Positions 3-23,902 of a stretch of 64,000 bases of DNA are shown piece after piece. The position numbers were made by a program, and so were the translations under genes. Numbering within the stretch: the stretch's first letter is position 1; each line of letters opens with the position of its first letter. Below the pieces are notes generated by a model, which saw only the letters and a list, made by a program, of their open reading frames with translations, was not told the origin of the DNA and searched no databases. Origin of the DNA: Succinivibrio dextrinosolvens DSM 3072 (GTDB lineage: Bacteria > Pseudomonadota > Gammaproteobacteria > Enterobacterales > Succinivibrionaceae); contig NZ_FUXX01000007.1 in assembly GCF_900167015.1 (NCBI RefSeq), positions 1 to 64,000 of the forward strand, given 5' to 3'.

Positions 3-245
3 CGTTCATTAGGTGCTCTATTCAGATTTACAAAAGAACAGATACAGGATATACCTTATCAGGCAGCAATAGATTCTCTAATGAGATGCTTCATTTATAT
101 TCCAAAGATTTTAGAAGAAGCAAGCCTGCTAAAGAAAGGTTGTCTTGTTAAAGCAGAGCAGATCATAAATGATCTGTTAGGCTCATGGTTTAACGGGATC
201 TGTAACTTCCTTAAGCAGGTAATTCCATTGCCTCTAGCAAGATAA
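3..245 (+). CDS. 3' end of an unidentified protein-coding gene (partial)
   Basis: An open frame runs in from the left edge and ends at a TAA at 243-245, giving the last 80 residues of a protein. The stretch is free of stops and has normal codon use, with a mixed helical composition and a hydrophobic C-terminus ending LPLAR. I do not recognise the family. No transcription terminator is evident after it. It lies upstream of glyQ on the same strand. The alternative that this is a chance open frame cannot be excluded, because only 80 codons are visible. Confidence 0.45.
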   Translation, partial: RSLGALFRFTKEQIQDIPYQAAIDSLMRCFIYIPKILEEASLLKKGCLVKAEQIINDLLGSWFNGICNFLKQVIPLPLAR

Positions 246-513
246 TAAATCAATACAAGTTTTTAAAGAGCATCAATCCTAGAGTGGATCTGGATTTACT
301 TAAATTTTTTATCTGGGAAACTCGAGTTAATTTATCTTTGCTTTTTCTTTCATGTTTTGTAACTTTTTTGCATTTTTCTTTCTTTTTATAGGTATTTTTC
401 CTCAATAAAGGCGCAAACTGATGCGGTTTAATGGTAAAATGTACCAACTTTTTTTTATTTTTTTTATTTGAATAGATCTTTATCTATTTTGTATTCGTCG
501 CAAGGTTAAAAAA
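246..513. other. non-coding gap upstream of glyQ with a possible extended -10
   Basis: This gap is AT-rich with long T runs and shows no convincing gene. The sequence TGGTAAAAT at 432-440 fits an extended -10 element and could drive glyQ, but no good -35 hexamer stands at the expected distance. A lysine-rich minus-strand frame here looks like a chance product of the T runs. Confidence 0.3.
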
Positions 514-1440
514 ATGTCTAACAAATATGACCTTCAAACATTCCAAGGTTTAATTCTTACCCTACAAGATTACTGGATGCGACATGGCTGCATGATTGCA
601 GAGCCATTCGATCTTGAAGTCGGTGCTGGTACTTCACACCCAATGACTTTCTTAAGATCACTTGGTCCTGAGCCAATCTCATGTGCATATGTTCAGCCAT
701 CAAGAAGACCAACCGATGGTCGTTACGGTGAAAACCCTAACAGACTTCAGCACTACTATCAGTTCCAGGTTATTCTTAAGCCATCTCCAGATAATATTCA
801 GGAGTTATATCTTGGCTCACTAAAGGAACTTGGTTTTGATCCAACCGAGAATGATATTCGTTTCGTTGAAGACAACTGGGAAAACCCAACTCTTGGTGCC
901 TGGGGTCTTGGCTGGGAAATCTGGCTGAACGGTATGGAAGTTTCACAGTTTACCTACTTCCAGCAGGTTGGCGGTCTAGAGTGTTTCCCTGTTACGGGTG
1001 AGCTTACCTATGGTCTAGAGCGTCTTGCTATGTACATCCAGAAGAAAAAGACTGTTTATGACTTAATCTGGGCACATACTGCAAACGGTGATGTTACCTA
1101 CGGTGACGTATTCCATCAGAACGAAGTAGAGCAGTCTACTTACAACTTTGAACACGCTGATACTGATTTCTTATTCAGCATGTTTGATCAGATGGAAAAA
1201 GAGAGTAGCTATCTTCTAAATCTGGAGAAGCCACTTCCTCTACCAGCATATGAAAGAATTCTAAAGGCAGCTCATTGTTTCAATCTGTTAGATGCAAGAC
1301 ATGCTATTTCAGTAACTGAGCGTCAGAGATTTATCCTGAGAATCAGAACTCTATCTAAATCTGTTGCAGAAGCATATTACAAATCTAGAGAAGAGCTAGG
1401 TTTCCCAATGTGCAAAAAGACTGAAAACAAGGATAACTAG
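514..1440 (+). CDS. glyQ: glycyl-tRNA synthetase alpha subunit
   Basis: GlyQ is the catalytic subunit of the bacterial alpha2beta2 glycyl-tRNA synthetase, a class II enzyme that makes Gly-tRNA in the cytoplasm. The 308 residues match the family length (303 in E. coli). The N-terminus ([20 protein letters not shown]), the [17 protein letters not shown] stretch and the [17 protein letters not shown] block are hallmark GlyQ motifs. The ATG at 514 follows an AAGG Shine-Dalgarno sequence. glyS follows 13 bases downstream, so the two form an operon. Position next to gyrB near the origin is common in gammaproteobacteria. Confidence 0.98.
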
Positions 1441-19258: not shown

Positions 19259-19417
19259 TTAAACGTGCATGTGTTTTACACGATCTCTTTCTTCAGCCTT
19301 TTTGCCATCATTGAAGCGATCTAGTGTTCCAACCAAATAGCCGGTTACGCGTCTAATTCTCTCGAATTTAACACCTTCACCAACAATACCATTACGAGCA
19401 TGTAGTCTAGTTTGCAT
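19259..19417 (-). CDS. detached glycyl-radical domain of class III ribonucleotide reductase (52 aa)
   Basis: This 52-residue protein contains the motif ERIRRVTGYLVGTLDRFNDG followed by KKAEERDRVKH. That is the C-terminal glycyl-radical segment normally fused to NrdD (E. coli Gly681 in RVCGYL, followed by FNAGK and RVKH). The radical glycine would be Gly26. A strong GAGAGG Shine-Dalgarno stands before the ATG at 19417. The gene begins 63 bases after the nrdD stop. It is in frame with nrdD, but three in-frame stops lie from the nrdD stop to its start, so simple readthrough is unlikely. The main NrdD chain lacks this segment. Inference: it works in trans with NrdD, as GrcA (YfiD) does for pyruvate formate-lyase. 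Confidence 0.85.
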   Translation of the reverse strand: MQTRLHARNGIVGEGVKFERIRRVTGYLVGTLDRFNDGKKAEERDRVKHMHV

Positions 19418-19465
19418 TGTTCACGTCCTCTCAAATAATAATAAAATTGCTGTAGATTTTTCAAT

Positions 19466-19487
19466 TGGTTAATAAAACTGTTAACCA
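19466..19487 (-). other. intercistronic hairpin after the nrdD stop
   Basis: TGGTTAA (minus strand, 19487-19481) pairs with TTAACCA (19472-19466) across an 8-base loop and overlaps the nrdD stop codon. No T run follows, so it looks more like a processing, stability or translational element than a terminator. Confidence 0.45.
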
Positions 19488-21745
19488 GTGCAGATGCATC
19501 CAACACCTAGCTTACGTAATCTTTCGATGCTTACGCCCTCGCCGTCCTTTCGACCGCATCTTGGGCATGTATCTCCGATAACACCTACGTAATTACATAC
19601 TGGGCAGCGGTCAACAGGATGGTTAATAGAACCATAATTTACACCGCATTCCTTCATATACAGAATTACGTCTTCGAAAGCTTTAACGTTCTTGGTTAAA
19701 TCACCATCCATTTCAACGTAGGAAATAGAACCTGCGTTACATAACTCATGGAATGGACCTTCAGTTTTAATCTTTTCTGCTGCAGATATTTCGTAGTAAA
19801 CAGGAACATGGAAGCTGTTAGTATAATAATCTCTATCAGTTACTCCAGGAATGCTTCCATATAGCTTTCTATCCAATTTTACAAAACGTCCTGACAGACC
19901 TTCTGCTGGGGTTGAGAACAATGAGAAATTCAGACCGGATTCAACCATCTTCTTGTCTGTTAACTCTCTCATATGTTTAATAATCTTGTAACCTAAATCG
20001 TAAGCTTCCTTACTTTCTCCATGATGCTTACCGATAAGAGCAACAAGACACTCAGCTAAACCAATAAATCCTACAGAAAGAGAACCGTTTTTAATTACAT
20101 CCTCAATTGTATCTTCTGGATTTAATTTTTCAGAGTCAATCCAAACACCCTGTCCCATTAAGAAAGGATAGTTTAGAACCTGCTTTTTAGCAATGATATT
20201 GAATCTATCCATCAGCTGATCGAAGACCATATATACCATTTTGTCTAGTGAATCAAAGAATTTGCTGATTGATCCATGAGCTTCAATAGCCAGACGAGGT
20301 AGATTTACAGTAGTGAATGACAGATTTCCACGACCAGGAATGATTTCCTTAGTCTTATCATAATAGTTTCCGAAAACACGAGTTCTGCATCCCATTACAG
20401 CAAGTTCTGTCTCAGGATGACCTTCCTTGTAATACTGCATGTTGTATGGAGCATCAAGGAAAGAGAAGTTAGGGAACAGTCTCTTTGCAGATACCTTACA
20501 TGCTAATTCAAATAAATCGAAGTTAGGATCACCTGGCTTGGTATTGATTCCATCCTTTACCTTAAAAATCTGTACAGGGAAGATTGGAGTCTCACCGCCA
20601 CCTAAACCGGCATCTGTTGCCATCAGAACATTCTTCATCAGCATTCTCTGTTCAGGAGTTGTTCCTGTACCATAGTTAATAGATGAGAATGGAACCTGAG
20701 CACCAGCTCTAGACTGCATAGAGTTAAGGTTATGAATAAGAGCTTCCATTGCCTGGTAAGTTTCTCTCTCAGTAAGCTTTAGAGCCTCGCTCATAACATA
20801 ATCTACATCAGAATCGATATTTGATGATTCATACTTTGAAAGAAGCTCTTTAACCTTACCTCTGATGATTGAAGAAACTTCATCTGACAGGCAGGTTTTG
20901 TGCTTAGCATAAAGCTCTTTGCACAGATCCTTTAATTCCTTTACATCTATATCATCATTTCTTAAGCAAACACATAAAACCTTACATAGATGCTTTGAGT
21001 ATGAAACTGCAACGTATGGAGCAAGGTCGTACTCAAATAAAGGAATAGACTGACCACCATGCTGATCATTCTGATTTGACTGAATAGCAATACAGCATAA
21101 TGCAGCAGCAGACTGAATTGACTGAGGCTCACGAAGGAAACCATGTCCTGTGCTGAAACCACGCTCGAATAAACCTTTCAGACTGATCTGACAGCAGTTG
21201 ATGGTTAGCATGTAGAAATCTAAATCATGGATATGAATATCGCCACGAGAATGAGCAATTGAATGCTCTGGACGTAAAACATATCTGCGAACATAGTCTT
21301 TAGCACCTTCAGAACCGAATCTTAACATCAGACCCATAGGAGCGTTTGCATCAATATTTGCATTCTCTCTCTTAAGATCCATGTCAGCAGTGCTCTTAGA
21401 GGTAAGATCTCTATAGATCTTTGTCAGGTCATTGTTATAAGTTCTGACCTTGGTTCTGTTCTGACGATACAGAATGAAGTTCTTGGCCTCTGCAGCCATA
21501 CCTTCTTTAATCAGAACCTTTTCAATAATATCCTGAGTATTTTCTACTGAAGGGGCTTCTAGATTCTGCTTCTCAATCTCGTTTACAACCTGACGTGTAA
21601 ACTTCTGTACGAGTTCTTCTTCATAAGCAGATGTAGATTTATCGTCTGGATGAGCTGAAATCAAAGATTTTCTAATTGCGTTGGATATCTTATCTTCGTT
21701 AAAAGAAACCTTTCTACCATCTCTTTTTACAATAAATCTGATCAT
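19481..21745 (-). CDS. nrdD: anaerobic ribonucleoside-triphosphate reductase main chain, lacking the glycyl-radical tail
   Basis: NrdD reduces ribonucleoside triphosphates to deoxyribonucleotides without oxygen. The 754 residues open with an ATP-cone (FIVKRDGRKVSFNEDKI). The ten-stranded barrel body follows, with QSIPLFEYDLAPYVA, MQSRAGAQVPFSSINYGTGT and GRGNLSFTTVNL. A four-cysteine zinc site comes near the end (CPVCNY, CPRCGRKDGEG). The protein then ends GVSIERLRKLGVGCICTG, so the RVxGYL glycyl-radical loop expected right here is missing. That loop is encoded separately just downstream. The end of NrdD and the start of the small protein share GEGVxxERxR, which suggests duplication followed by fission. 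The sequence resembles Firmicutes-type NrdD. Confidence 0.95.
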   Translation of the reverse strand: MIRFIVKRDGRKVSFNEDKISNAIRKSLISAHPDDKSTSAYEEELVQKFTRQVVNEIEKQNLEAPSVENTQDIIEKVLIKEGMAAEAKNFILYRQNRTKVRTYNNDLTKIYRDLTSKSTADMDLKRENANIDANAPMGLMLRFGSEGAKDYVRRYVLRPEHSIAHSRGDIHIHDLDFYMLTINCCQISLKGLFERGFSTGHGFLREPQSIQSAAALCCIAIQSNQNDQHGGQSIPLFEYDLAPYVAVSYSKHLCKVLCVCLRNDDIDVKELKDLCKELYAKHKTCLSDEVSSIIRGKVKELLSKYESSNIDSDVDYVMSEALKLTERETYQAMEALIHNLNSMQSRAGAQVPFSSINYGTGTTPEQRMLMKNVLMATDAGLGGGETPIFPVQIFKVKDGINTKPGDPNFDLFELACKVSAKRLFPNFSFLDAPYNMQYYKEGHPETELAVMGCRTRVFGNYYDKTKEIIPGRGNLSFTTVNLPRLAIEAHGSISKFFDSLDKMVYMVFDQLMDRFNIIAKKQVLNYPFLMGQGVWIDSEKLNPEDTIEDVIKNGSLSVGFIGLAECLVALIGKHHGESKEAYDLGYKIIKHMRELTDKKMVESGLNFSLFSTPAEGLSGRFVKLDRKLYGSIPGVTDRDYYTNSFHVPVYYEISAAEKIKTEGPFHELCNAGSISYVEMDGDLTKNVKAFEDVILYMKECGVNYGSINHPVDRCPVCNYVGVIGDTCPRCGRKDGEGVSIERLRKLGVGCICTG

Positions 21746-21978: not shown

Positions 21979-23028
21979 ATGAAGTTGATTGATGTTTTCT
22001 GTGACGTTATCGATAATTTTGGTGATGCTGGAGTTTGTTTGAGACTCTGTAGAGATTTTTCAAAAAAAAATTTTGAGGTTCGTCTCTTTTGTAATAATGT
22101 CAATATATTGAACAAAATCACAAATTCAGAAGATAATTCCAATCGATTTTTAAGCCTTTTATCATGGTCTGATAACATAAGTAGTTACACACCTTCAGAA
22201 GTAGTAATTCAGGCCTTCTCAGTAAGGCTTCCTGAAGAACTAATAAAAAAAATCAAAACCAAAAAATCCATTGTCGTAAATCTTGAGTATCTTACAGCTG
22301 AACCATTCGCTGAAGATTGCCATAAACTGCCTTCATATTCAGACGGAATAGAAAGTTACTTCTTCTTTCCAGGTTTTACCAAGAAAACTGGAGGAGTTGT
22401 AATAGAGGAGTCTTTCCTGAATAAAATAAAGAAAAAAAAATCTGAAGAATCAAAGAGTATTACTTTATTCAGCTATGAGAATGAGAAAGTTAAAACAGTA
22501 GTTAATTCATTAAGCAAAAAGAATTTAATTCTCAACATATTTGAAGGAAAAGGATTAAATAACTTTAATAACCTGTTTAAATTAAATCTTAAAACCGGAG
22601 ATCAGTTTAAGCTTAATGAAATTACAGTCAATGTTCTTCCTATGGTAAGTCAGGACGAATACGACTCTTATTTGATTGATTCGTACATAAATCTTGTAAG
22701 AGGAGAAGATTCAATTGTTAGAGCAATGCTTACCGGAAATCCATTCCTATGGCATATATATCCTCAGGAAGAGAATGCCCACAAAGTAAAAATAGATGCC
22801 CTTTTCGACAGAATGAACGAGGTATGTACAAATAAGGATGATGTTGAGAGACTAAGAAAAATAACTCTCAGCTACAACGGTTTCTCTGACTATTTAAACA
22901 ATATCGATCTTTTGGATTTCTACGACAGCTGGAAAAGACTTTCAGAGGAATGGTCCTCACACCTTATATCTTTAGGATCTCTAACCGACAATTTAATCGA
23001 ATTTCTAAAAACTAAGACTGATTTTTAG
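21979..23028 (+). CDS. earP: EF-P arginine rhamnosyltransferase EarP
   Basis: EarP attaches rhamnose from dTDP-rhamnose to Arg32 of elongation factor P, activating it to relieve stalling at polyproline. The N-terminus VFCDVIDNFGDAGVCLRL contains the two aspartates (Asp12, Asp16 here) that correspond to the essential pair in Pseudomonas EarP. RGEDSIVRAM near residue 249 holds the conserved glutamate and matches the family. Length is 349 (about 375-380 in better-known members). AGG stands close before the ATG. efp with Arg32 lies directly downstream, which strongly supports the call. Confidence 0.95.
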   Translation: MKLIDVFCDVIDNFGDAGVCLRLCRDFSKKNFEVRLFCNNVNILNKITNSEDNSNRFLSLLSWSDNISSYTPSEVVIQAFSVRLPEELIKKIKTKKSIVVNLEYLTAEPFAEDCHKLPSYSDGIESYFFFPGFTKKTGGVVIEESFLNKIKKKKSEESKSITLFSYENEKVKTVVNSLSKKNLILNIFEGKGLNNFNNLFKLNLKTGDQFKLNEITVNVLPMVSQDEYDSYLIDSYINLVRGEDSIVRAMLTGNPFLWHIYPQEENAHKVKIDALFDRMNEVCTNKDDVERLRKITLSYNGFSDYLNNIDLLDFYDSWKRLSEEWSSHLISLGSLTDNLIEFLKTKTDF

Positions 23029-23151
23029 AAAAAATGAAAAAAGATAAAAACAAAATACAATTTAAAACCAATTAATAGAGAAAAAAGTTGTCTAAAGATA
23101 GTAAACATGCCTTTAAATCTGTTAGAATGTCACGTTATATTTTCACTCTTG

Positions 23152-23157
23152 TATAAT
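23152..23157 (+). promoter_or_regulatory. candidate efp -10 element
   Basis: TATAAT at 23152-23157 lies about 180 bases upstream of efp with no clear -35. It falls within a small inverted repeat (CACTCT at 23144-23149 with AGAGTG after it). If used, the transcript would carry a long structured leader. Confidence 0.35.
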
Positions 23158-23234
23158 AGAGTGACATTCAGAAGATGCTCTGTGTAGTTCACACTAAGTT
23201 AGCGTTTAAATTGTTTAAATCAGTTTAATAGAAT

Positions 23235-23302
23235 GGCAGGGACCGCATAAGACATCATGAACAATATTTTTTATTGTTAATGGCTGGATTAATGTCCTTG
23301 CC
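23235..23302 (+). promoter_or_regulatory. candidate structured 5' leader of efp
   Basis: GGCAGGGAC (23235-23243) pairs with GTCCTTGCC (23294-23302), eight Watson-Crick pairs and one G-U. Inside, AACAATA (23260-23266) pairs with TATTGTT (23272-23278) around a T5 loop. The element ends 36 bases before the efp ATG. The rest of the 310-base gap 23029-23338 is AT-rich and shows no gene. I do not recognise a known riboswitch class. Confidence 0.45.
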
Positions 23303-23338
23303 TATAGATTTAAATTTAATTATTCAAAGGGTTTAATA

Positions 23339-23902
23339 ATGAAATTAGCTCAAGAAATCCGCACTGGCAACGTAATCATGTTAAATGGCAATCCTATGGT
23401 TGTTCAGAAGACTGAGTACAGCAAATCAGGCCGTAACGCTGCAGTTGTAAAAATGAAGTTAAAGAACCTGTTATCAAACGGTGGTACCGAAACTGTTTTC
23501 CGTGCTGACGACCGTTTAGATGACGTTGTTCTAGAGCGTAAAGAGTGCACCTACTCATACTACGGTGATCCACTATACGTATTCATGGATGAAGAATTCA
23601 ATCAGTACGAGATTGAGAAAGACAACATGGGTGATGTTCTAAACTACCTAGTTGACGGTATGGAAGATATCTGCCAGGTTACTTTCTACAATGGTAAGGC
23701 TATCTCTGTTGAGTTACCTATCACCATCGTTCGTGAAGTTGAGTACACCGAGCCAGCAGTTAAGGGCGATACCTCAGGTAAGGTTGTTAAGCCAGCTCGT
23801 CTAGCTGTAACTGGTTATGAAATCTCAGTTCCAGATTTCGTAAACATCGGCGACAAGATCGAAATCGATACTCGTACCAACGAGTTCAAGAAGCGTGTTT
23901 AA
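23339..23902 (+). CDS. efp: elongation factor P
   Basis: EF-P binds the ribosome between the P and E sites and speeds peptide-bond formation at consecutive prolines. The 187 residues match the family. The modification loop reads YSKSGRNA, with Arg at position 32, the residue that EarP rhamnosylates; species that use EpmA have Lys there. This agrees with earP immediately upstream. AAAGGG precedes the ATG. An intrinsic terminator follows, so the gene is probably its own unit. Confidence 0.98.

Follow-up and report, generated by a model that had tools for sequence, protein, structure and literature searches.

Class III ribonucleotide reductases (RNRs) combine an N-terminal ATP-cone with the NRDD catalytic domain, hold the glycyl-radical loop on the same chain, and are encoded together with their activase, NrdG. 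The account of the P. copri enzyme in PMC11226230 assigns roles to a thiyl cysteine, a second cysteine, a formate-type asparagine and an NxN flap, gives a zinc role to a four-cysteine site, and describes a radical domain that could not be detected with dATP and that, in the dimer with ATP bound, was fully ordered in one of the monomers. Oxygen cuts glycyl-radical enzymes at the glycine, as reported in PMC12288474, and spare parts are already known for pyruvate formate-lyase (PFL): YfiD (GrcA) repeats the strand that oxygen-cleaved PFL keeps, and PMC8683613 names only YfiD and Y06I of phage T4 as validated, while considering spare parts possible for other glycyl-radical enzymes. An RNR divided between two chains is also known, the class II enzyme NrdJa/NrdJb (PMC9669993). 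For NrdD, we found no description of a split enzyme or of a spare part in the open-licence papers of PMC, a collection outside which most subscription papers lie. Here we analyse a stretch of 64,000 nucleotides from Succinivibrio dextrinosolvens DSM 3072 (the window), in which an nrdD gene is followed by a small gene, hereafter the tail. An earlier note on this DNA had read the pair as a class III RNR with its glycyl-radical domain as a separate protein, and this stands as the best reading, given that the two proteins match complementary parts of one Pfam profile and that separate tails go with truncated NrdDs. On these sequence grounds, we think it very likely that the locus encodes a two-polypeptide, obligately split class III RNR whose radical subunit acts in trans.

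The body of the enzyme is that of an NrdD. It matches Pfam NRDD at profile positions 1-532 of 562 (611.9 bits, E 1.5e-183), Pfam ATP-cone (62 bits, E 8e-17) and NCBIfam PRK07111 (1024.3 bits), and thus has both the catalytic domain and the N-terminal cone of the class. When aligned with P. copri NrdD, its Cys453, Cys184, Asn474 and the Asn128-x-Asn130 flap fall on the role positions, and the catalytic-residue set of class III RNRs is present. What the chain lacks, as the earlier note had seen, is the radical loop: it ends in CPRCGRKDGEGVSIERLRKLGVGCICTG, stopping 22 residues past the zinc site (CPRCGR) and at profile position 532, with no R-V-x-G-Y, and the terminal remnant GEGVSIERLRKLGVGCICTG has no R-V/I-x-G-Y and a CxC close to its end. 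The C-terminal four-cysteine site of NrdD is in general zinc-binding; in the NrdDs of clostridial relatives the first of the four cysteines is missing. The truncated end is conserved in the family, with GEGVxxERLxKLGVxCIC in most versions. Two terminal cysteines, often as CxC, occur in 15 of 17 distinct truncated C-termini of the family (19484-19498 in the window), though the enzyme looks formate-dependent.

The missing part is found in the tail protein, MQTRLHARNGIVGEGVKFERIRRVTGYLVGTLDRFNDGKKAEERDRVKHMHV, whose loop reads RRVTGYLVG. It matches Pfam NRDD (PF13597) at profile positions 532-562 (E 3.6e-8), so that NrdD and tail together make up one complete NrdD. The protein aligns with residues 707-739 of the deposited P. 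copri chain; when positions are shifted by 4, a shift that holds for Cys416 too, its Gly26 falls on the radical Gly711 in the numbering used in PMC11226230. The coordinates and translations of the two genes were correct in the earlier note, as was the stretch GEGVxxERxR common to both proteins (GEGVSIERLR in NrdD, GEGVKFERIR in the tail). The PFL-type Gly_radical family (PF01228) gave no match to the tail at E up to 1, a search in which HMMER filters may drop very weak matches, and NCBIfam yielded no model specific to such tails for the four that were scanned. The activase, which the earlier note does not mention, is encoded together with the two genes: the nrdG product reaches 129.3 bits against NCBIfam TIGR02491 (cut-off 126.1) and also matches Radical_SAM and Fer4_12.

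The association between truncated NrdDs and separate tails holds across the Succinivibrionaceae, which are bacteria of gut and rumen. A profile search of 56 genomes of the family found only truncated NrdD in 36, only fused NrdD in 13 and both in one (G077); six had no NrdD body, three of them with tail-like hits and three with nothing. All 36 truncated-only genomes gave a separate tail hit, 29 of them at least two, and none of the 13 fused-only genomes did; these numbers are Pfam hits, counted unread for the tails of G066, G069, G070, G072 and several unlinked ones. An adjacent tail was read in 32 of the 36, and RRVTGY is present in every one. The family PF02867 takes in the RNRs of classes I and II; it was matched in 12 of the 56 genomes, all within the truncated-only set, and was not detected in the other 24 of that set, which include the genome of the window and the one-contig genome G014 (99% complete). 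Because no other RNR is detectable in these 24 of the 36, the two-piece enzyme most likely works, and, to judge from this distribution, its two pieces most likely work together. The earlier note had worried that a second complete nrdD might make this one dispensable; the genome of the window (97% complete) has a single NrdD body, no detected class I or II RNR, and a second tail of 59 residues on a different contig.

The tails themselves are mostly about 45 to 120 codons long and easily overlooked by annotation. For the family's 62 distinct tail cores, selected with a pattern in which much of the loop is preset, the proportion of nonsynonymous differences (pN) is 0.14 against a synonymous one (pS) of 0.85, and eight positions outside the pattern (three Arg, Phe, Asn, two Lys and Glu) are invariant in all 62; judged by these substitutions, the tails are under strong selection at the protein level. 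A Pfam hit in G008 that fails the tail pattern is a different small protein. The open reading frame (ORF) at about 857-1047 of L045 likewise encodes a small protein other than a tail, with RVMGYHRPVxSFNxGK and a weak match to the end of NRDD; a search of 50,697 phage records at E 1e-3 gave no relative.

The earlier note had suggested searching for tail-less NrdDs beside small ORFs, and the arrangement proves widespread. Among named loci, of which we took the best 80 from an alignment of the body, the closest NrdD is that of an uncultured Succinatimonas metagenome-assembled genome (MAG), with 98% identity, followed by those of Succinivibrio faecicola, Anaerobiospirillum and other Succinivibrionaceae. 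Thirty-six of these loci are split and 44 fused, the former comprising 7 from Succinivibrionaceae and 29 from elsewhere, mostly Clostridia, with three Fibrobacter and one MAG labelled Desulfovibrionaceae. The tail adjoins nrdD in 17 of the 29. The remaining 12 bear the names Ruminococcus or unclassified Clostridia, and in 10 of them a whole-genome search detected a tail at an unlinked site. A fused NrdD is also present in at least six Ruminococcus-type split genomes (G080, G084 to G088). An even draw of 147 genomes from the class of Anaerotruncus (G095) contained an NrdD ending near position 531 in three cases among the matches listed, two of them already known, and the split enzyme looks rare and sporadic in Clostridia at large. 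The split pair occurs too in a Subdoligranulum plasmid record. Plasmid records of Subdoligranulum variabile (L080, L081) contain tail-like ORFs that have degenerated: in one the loop is altered to RRIKVYLVG, and another has a broken frame. Truncated NrdDs from relatives of Butyricicoccus and Anaerotruncus (L106, L115, L118, L127, L131, L133, L136, L151, L154, L166) end in shortened sequences like GY-x-GD...EE.DR, which look like a decayed radical loop, perhaps one that still serves a purpose.

In a tree of 110 NrdDs, thinned by hand from 129 extracted rows with most E. coli-type fused rows dropped, 11 changes between the split and fused states are needed, at least seven of them forced by well-supported branches; the tree comes from a quick LG+G4 search with the C-terminus excluded, it carries a long-branch warning, and the method does not give the direction of change. 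The family's fused NrdDs belong to the E. coli type and lie far from its split NrdDs on the tree, so a transfer has probably put the split enzyme in place of the ancestral one.

Two AlphaFold runs were made on the NrdD-tail chain read through the stops, as a device only, and an initial alignment that set the fused loop on the NrdD remnant was excluded from folding. The body came out fair to good, with a mean predicted local distance difference test (pLDDT) score of 71.6, then 78.1 with a predicted template modelling score (pTM) of 0.74. The folded chain can be superposed on P. copri NrdD (8p2s_B) over 625 residues (Z 44.1, root-mean-square deviation 3.2; model 101..826, chain 85..735, these being the first and last aligned residues only), and on T4 NrdD up to model residues 807-812. 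In such a model the tail could occupy the place of the native loop. We picture a mechanism in which NrdD would supply the allosteric ATP-cone, the barrel with the thiyl-radical cysteine, and a zinc platform, on which the 52-residue tail would dock at the place of the missing loop, its RVTGYL loop entering the barrel; NrdG would generate the Gly26 radical in the NrdD-tail complex, and the radical would pass to Cys453, with formate as reductant.

Could the cell still produce a single fused protein, whether through readthrough of the stops, frameshifting, RNA editing or protein ligation? The two ORFs of the window do lie in the same frame, and one stop only separates the genes in 4 of 49 distinct adjacent pairs from the family and other phyla. 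Yet 15 of these 49 pairs are in frame, the one third expected by chance, and the gap among the closest relatives of the window measures 63, 67 or 75 nt (63 in L001, 67 in L028), so that the frame differs between them. Many tails lie on other contigs altogether, and tails have their own start, preceded by a Shine-Dalgarno-like stretch in 43 of the 49 pairs; moreover, the NrdD remnant repeats GEGVxxER, so a fusion would contain two copies of it. We regard a fused product as extremely unlikely, and readthrough and frameshifting were rejected on the frames of the 49 pairs and the unlinked copies, the lack of a frame relation agreeing with the earlier note, which had disfavoured readthrough. That note had counted three in-frame stops between the genes: the total is right, but only two are in the gap, the other being the TAA of nrdD itself. 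It had also raised a sequencing error. An assembly or sequencing error splitting a normal gene is practically out of the question, since the same structure recurs in 36 genomes of the family, including the one-contig G014, in the strain record of Succinivibrio faecicola AGMB01872 (L100), and in other phyla.

A different doubt is whether the truncated NrdD is functional at all, or decaying in cells that rely on salvage or on another RNR. The class I or II enzymes of 12 split genomes and the fused NrdDs of at least six Ruminococcus-type ones would fit such decay; set against them, 24 of 36 split genomes have neither a detectable class I/II RNR nor a fused NrdD, the ORF is intact with its catalytic residues retained, and the tails are strongly conserved, which makes decay very unlikely. 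It also seems very unlikely that the truncated NrdD can dispense with a glycyl radical, for instance through its C-terminal CxC, with tails serving otherwise, e.g., in regulation: the cysteine pair is frequent in the family, but 2 of the 17 C-termini have one cysteine or none, nrdG is retained behind the tail in the window, and all 32 adjacent tails that were read carry the radical motif. Several observations do weigh against an obligately split enzyme with a trans-acting subunit. A third of the split family genomes (12 of 36) have a class I/II RNR; G005, G007 and G008 show tail-like hits and no NrdD body, perhaps through incompleteness; the truncated-NrdD MAG G082 has neither a tail nor another NrdD in a whole-genome search, and the truncated-NrdD genome G086 has no tail, though a fused NrdD is present; the radical hairpin has a pLDDT below 50 in the model and is hence unused as proof of docking; and the oxygen-repair origin proposed below leans on analogy, few neighbourhoods and cut positions.

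The layout of the locus is given in Table 1. A hairpin in the gap is no better than in shuffled sequences (z 0.37), and an RNA attenuator at this place was dropped for that reason. No tRNA or Rfam match was found in the window. Upstream of nrdD, at 21979-23902, lie ORFs of 349 and 187 residues that look like earP and efp.

Table 1. Features of the split nrdD locus in the window
Feature	Position	Strand	Remarks
nrdD without glycyl-radical loop, 754 aa	19481..21745	-	ATP-cone, catalytic barrel and zinc site
Zinc site Cys714-x2-Cys717 ... Cys727-x2-Cys730	19556..19606	-	from the translation; aligned with relatives
NrdD C-terminal remnant GEGVSIERLRKLGVGCICTG	19484..19543	-	aligns with the start of the fused loop
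Gap between nrdD and tail, 63 nt	19418..19480	-	in-frame stops TAA 19469-19471 and TGA 19421-19423
Ribosome site GAGAGGA of the tail gene	19426-19432	-	8 nt upstream of ATG
Separate glycyl-radical subunit (tail), 52 aa	19259..19417	-	predicted radical Gly26, codon at 19340-19342
nrdG, radical-SAM activase, 188 aa	18643..19209	-	downstream of the tail, same strand

The second tail of this genome lies at 5500-5679 of L035 (minus strand). The gene that flanks it (365 residues in this genome) adjoins the tail in ten further loci of the 28 compared (L036, L037, L038, L041, L046, L050, L053, L054, L056 and L058), with a partial match in L059; since this neighbourhood is conserved across the genus, the locus is an old and retained one, not a stray copy. 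Scans for FNR, ArcA, OxyR and NrdR consensus sites upstream of nrdD, of the window's tail and of nine second-locus tails gave nothing consistent; the second-locus tail of L053 has a perfect FNR consensus near its start. A Fur/PerR-like 7-1-7 box with at most two mismatches accompanies 9 of 30 unlinked tails against 0.17 expected, the box having been picked by eye and after the fact, from sequences that are related and that lie between divergent genes, and it could serve the divergent neighbour rather than the second tail. Ten loci of the genus have the box, with up to three mismatches, at 74-142 nt upstream of their second tail; none was found in the window.

How the split arose is suggested by what the two pieces have kept. 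The earlier note had proposed duplication and reciprocal loss, which gains support from remnants of the loop, from genomes with both a fused NrdD and a tail, and from the repeated changes in the tree. The stretch ERLRKLGVGCIC of the window's NrdD aligns with ERIRRITGYLV, having retained the strand before the loop, and two Ruminococcus NrdDs (L111, L114) end in ERIRRIT-CSC, cut just ahead of the position of the radical glycine, the residue at which oxygen cleaves such enzymes. A fused NrdD and a separate tail coexist in two of the ten fused-type genomes tested (L109, L110), Ructibacterium gallinarum being a species with this combination, and the tail repeats the GEGVxxERxR of NrdD much as YfiD repeats a PFL strand in the description of PMC8683613. 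Taken together, the remnants, the coexistence and the repeat point to duplication followed by decay. By analogy with GrcA/YfiD and PFL, the free tail may first have been a spare part used after oxygen cleavage; NrdD would then have lost its own loop and become permanently dependent on an exchangeable tail. The radical subunit probably evolved from a GrcA-like spare part. Ruminococcus-type tails have an additional N-terminal stretch of about 55 residues, in which no Pfam family exceeded its cut-off in the two tails scanned. As single cases rather than statistics, one of the two R. albus tail genes shares a cluster with thioredoxin-reductase-like, thioredoxin, MarR, glutathione-peroxidase-like and rubrerythrin genes, and the other adjoins a Toprim/DUF3991 protein, a setting that resembles a mobile element.

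Tails are also abundant in viral records. Two scans of IMG/VR yielded 154 loci, in which some contigs appear twice; of 211 relatives in the second scan, the best 80 were kept. By script, 116 of the loci have a tail ORF below 260 codons, a few being fragments or pattern artefacts, and 24 have a fused NrdD. Whole-record searches covered 50 records above 30 kb, 44 hand-picked for a separate tail and six initially left out: 46 contain a tail without an NrdD body, although such records may be fragments. G133 has a tail with pieces of NrdD, and three of the six added records have a tail only, the others being G307, with a fused-type NrdD and two tails, G308, with only the end of a cut-off NrdD, and G312. 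In this last record (L348, 1-2468), a truncated NrdD of 760 codons has its own tail of 62 codons directly behind it. Phage portal (8 over cut-off) and terminase (7 over cut-off) were both matched in ten of the first 44 records, nine of which lack the NrdD body; the phage status of the other 34 is that of the IMG/VR label. One of these, L281, has an integrase near the tail. This prophage-like record, whose number suggests an isolate genome, places a window-like tail beside ORFs that resemble, by eye, a diversity-generating reverse transcriptase and its target. In Eggerthella phage EL753P1 (L077, 1650-5087), NrdD ends past the zinc site and a separate tail follows, its frame broken in the record right before the TGYL loop. 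A long-type separate tail in MT838827 (L079), labelled phage, lies near ORFs resembling, by eye, an RND transporter and metK, so that scaffold is probably bacterial chromosome.

There is about an even chance, in our view, that NrdD-type tails are widespread exchangeable parts: 1) spares beside an intact NrdD; 2) obligate subunits of an NrdD that is permanently 'pre-cleaved'; and 3) genes of phages and probably conjugative elements that sustain or seize the synthesis of DNA precursors in the host. Speculatively, damaged tails might be swapped, tail dosage might control the only RNR of a cell, and phages might bring their own tails. If so, oxygen damage would be repaired by replacing about 6 kDa rather than the entire enzyme, a sole RNR could be controlled by the dosage of a subunit, and a phage tail gene may act on host nucleotide metabolism. 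This would matter because RNR is essential, and many of these genomes yielded no RNR other than the split one. With a radical subunit open to addition, omission or exchange, natural proteins could be used to test questions on class III RNRs: the way in which NrdG recognises the loop, the movement of the loop in allosteric control, and whether the monomers work one at a time. Such a subunit would also provide candidate spare parts beyond PFL, a possibility raised in the spare-part discussion of PMC8683613.

Compared with known systems, the enzyme resembles each in part. It shares with the class III NrdDs of P. copri (8p23) and T4 (1h7x) the barrel, the thiyl cysteine, the zinc site and NrdG, and with that of P. 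copri the ATP-cone and, in the tail, the alignment around Gly711; their loop is on the same chain, whereas here it is a separate protein, often in several copies. With GrcA/YfiD and T4 Y06I it has in common a small, autonomous, free-standing glycyl-radical-loop protein that repeats a stretch kept by its truncated partner and that is also encoded by phages, as in T4. Unlike GrcA/YfiD, the window's tail is NrdD-like, without a match to the PFL-type Gly_radical family, and its lineage has no intact partner to rescue, so that dependence looks permanent. NrdJa/NrdJb is likewise a two-chain RNR, but of class II; the window's NrdD matches NRDD, and the large-subunit fold of classes I and II, PF02867, has no match in its genome. 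What appears to be new here is an enzyme that is a class III RNR by every feature tested, except that its radical loop is off the chain.

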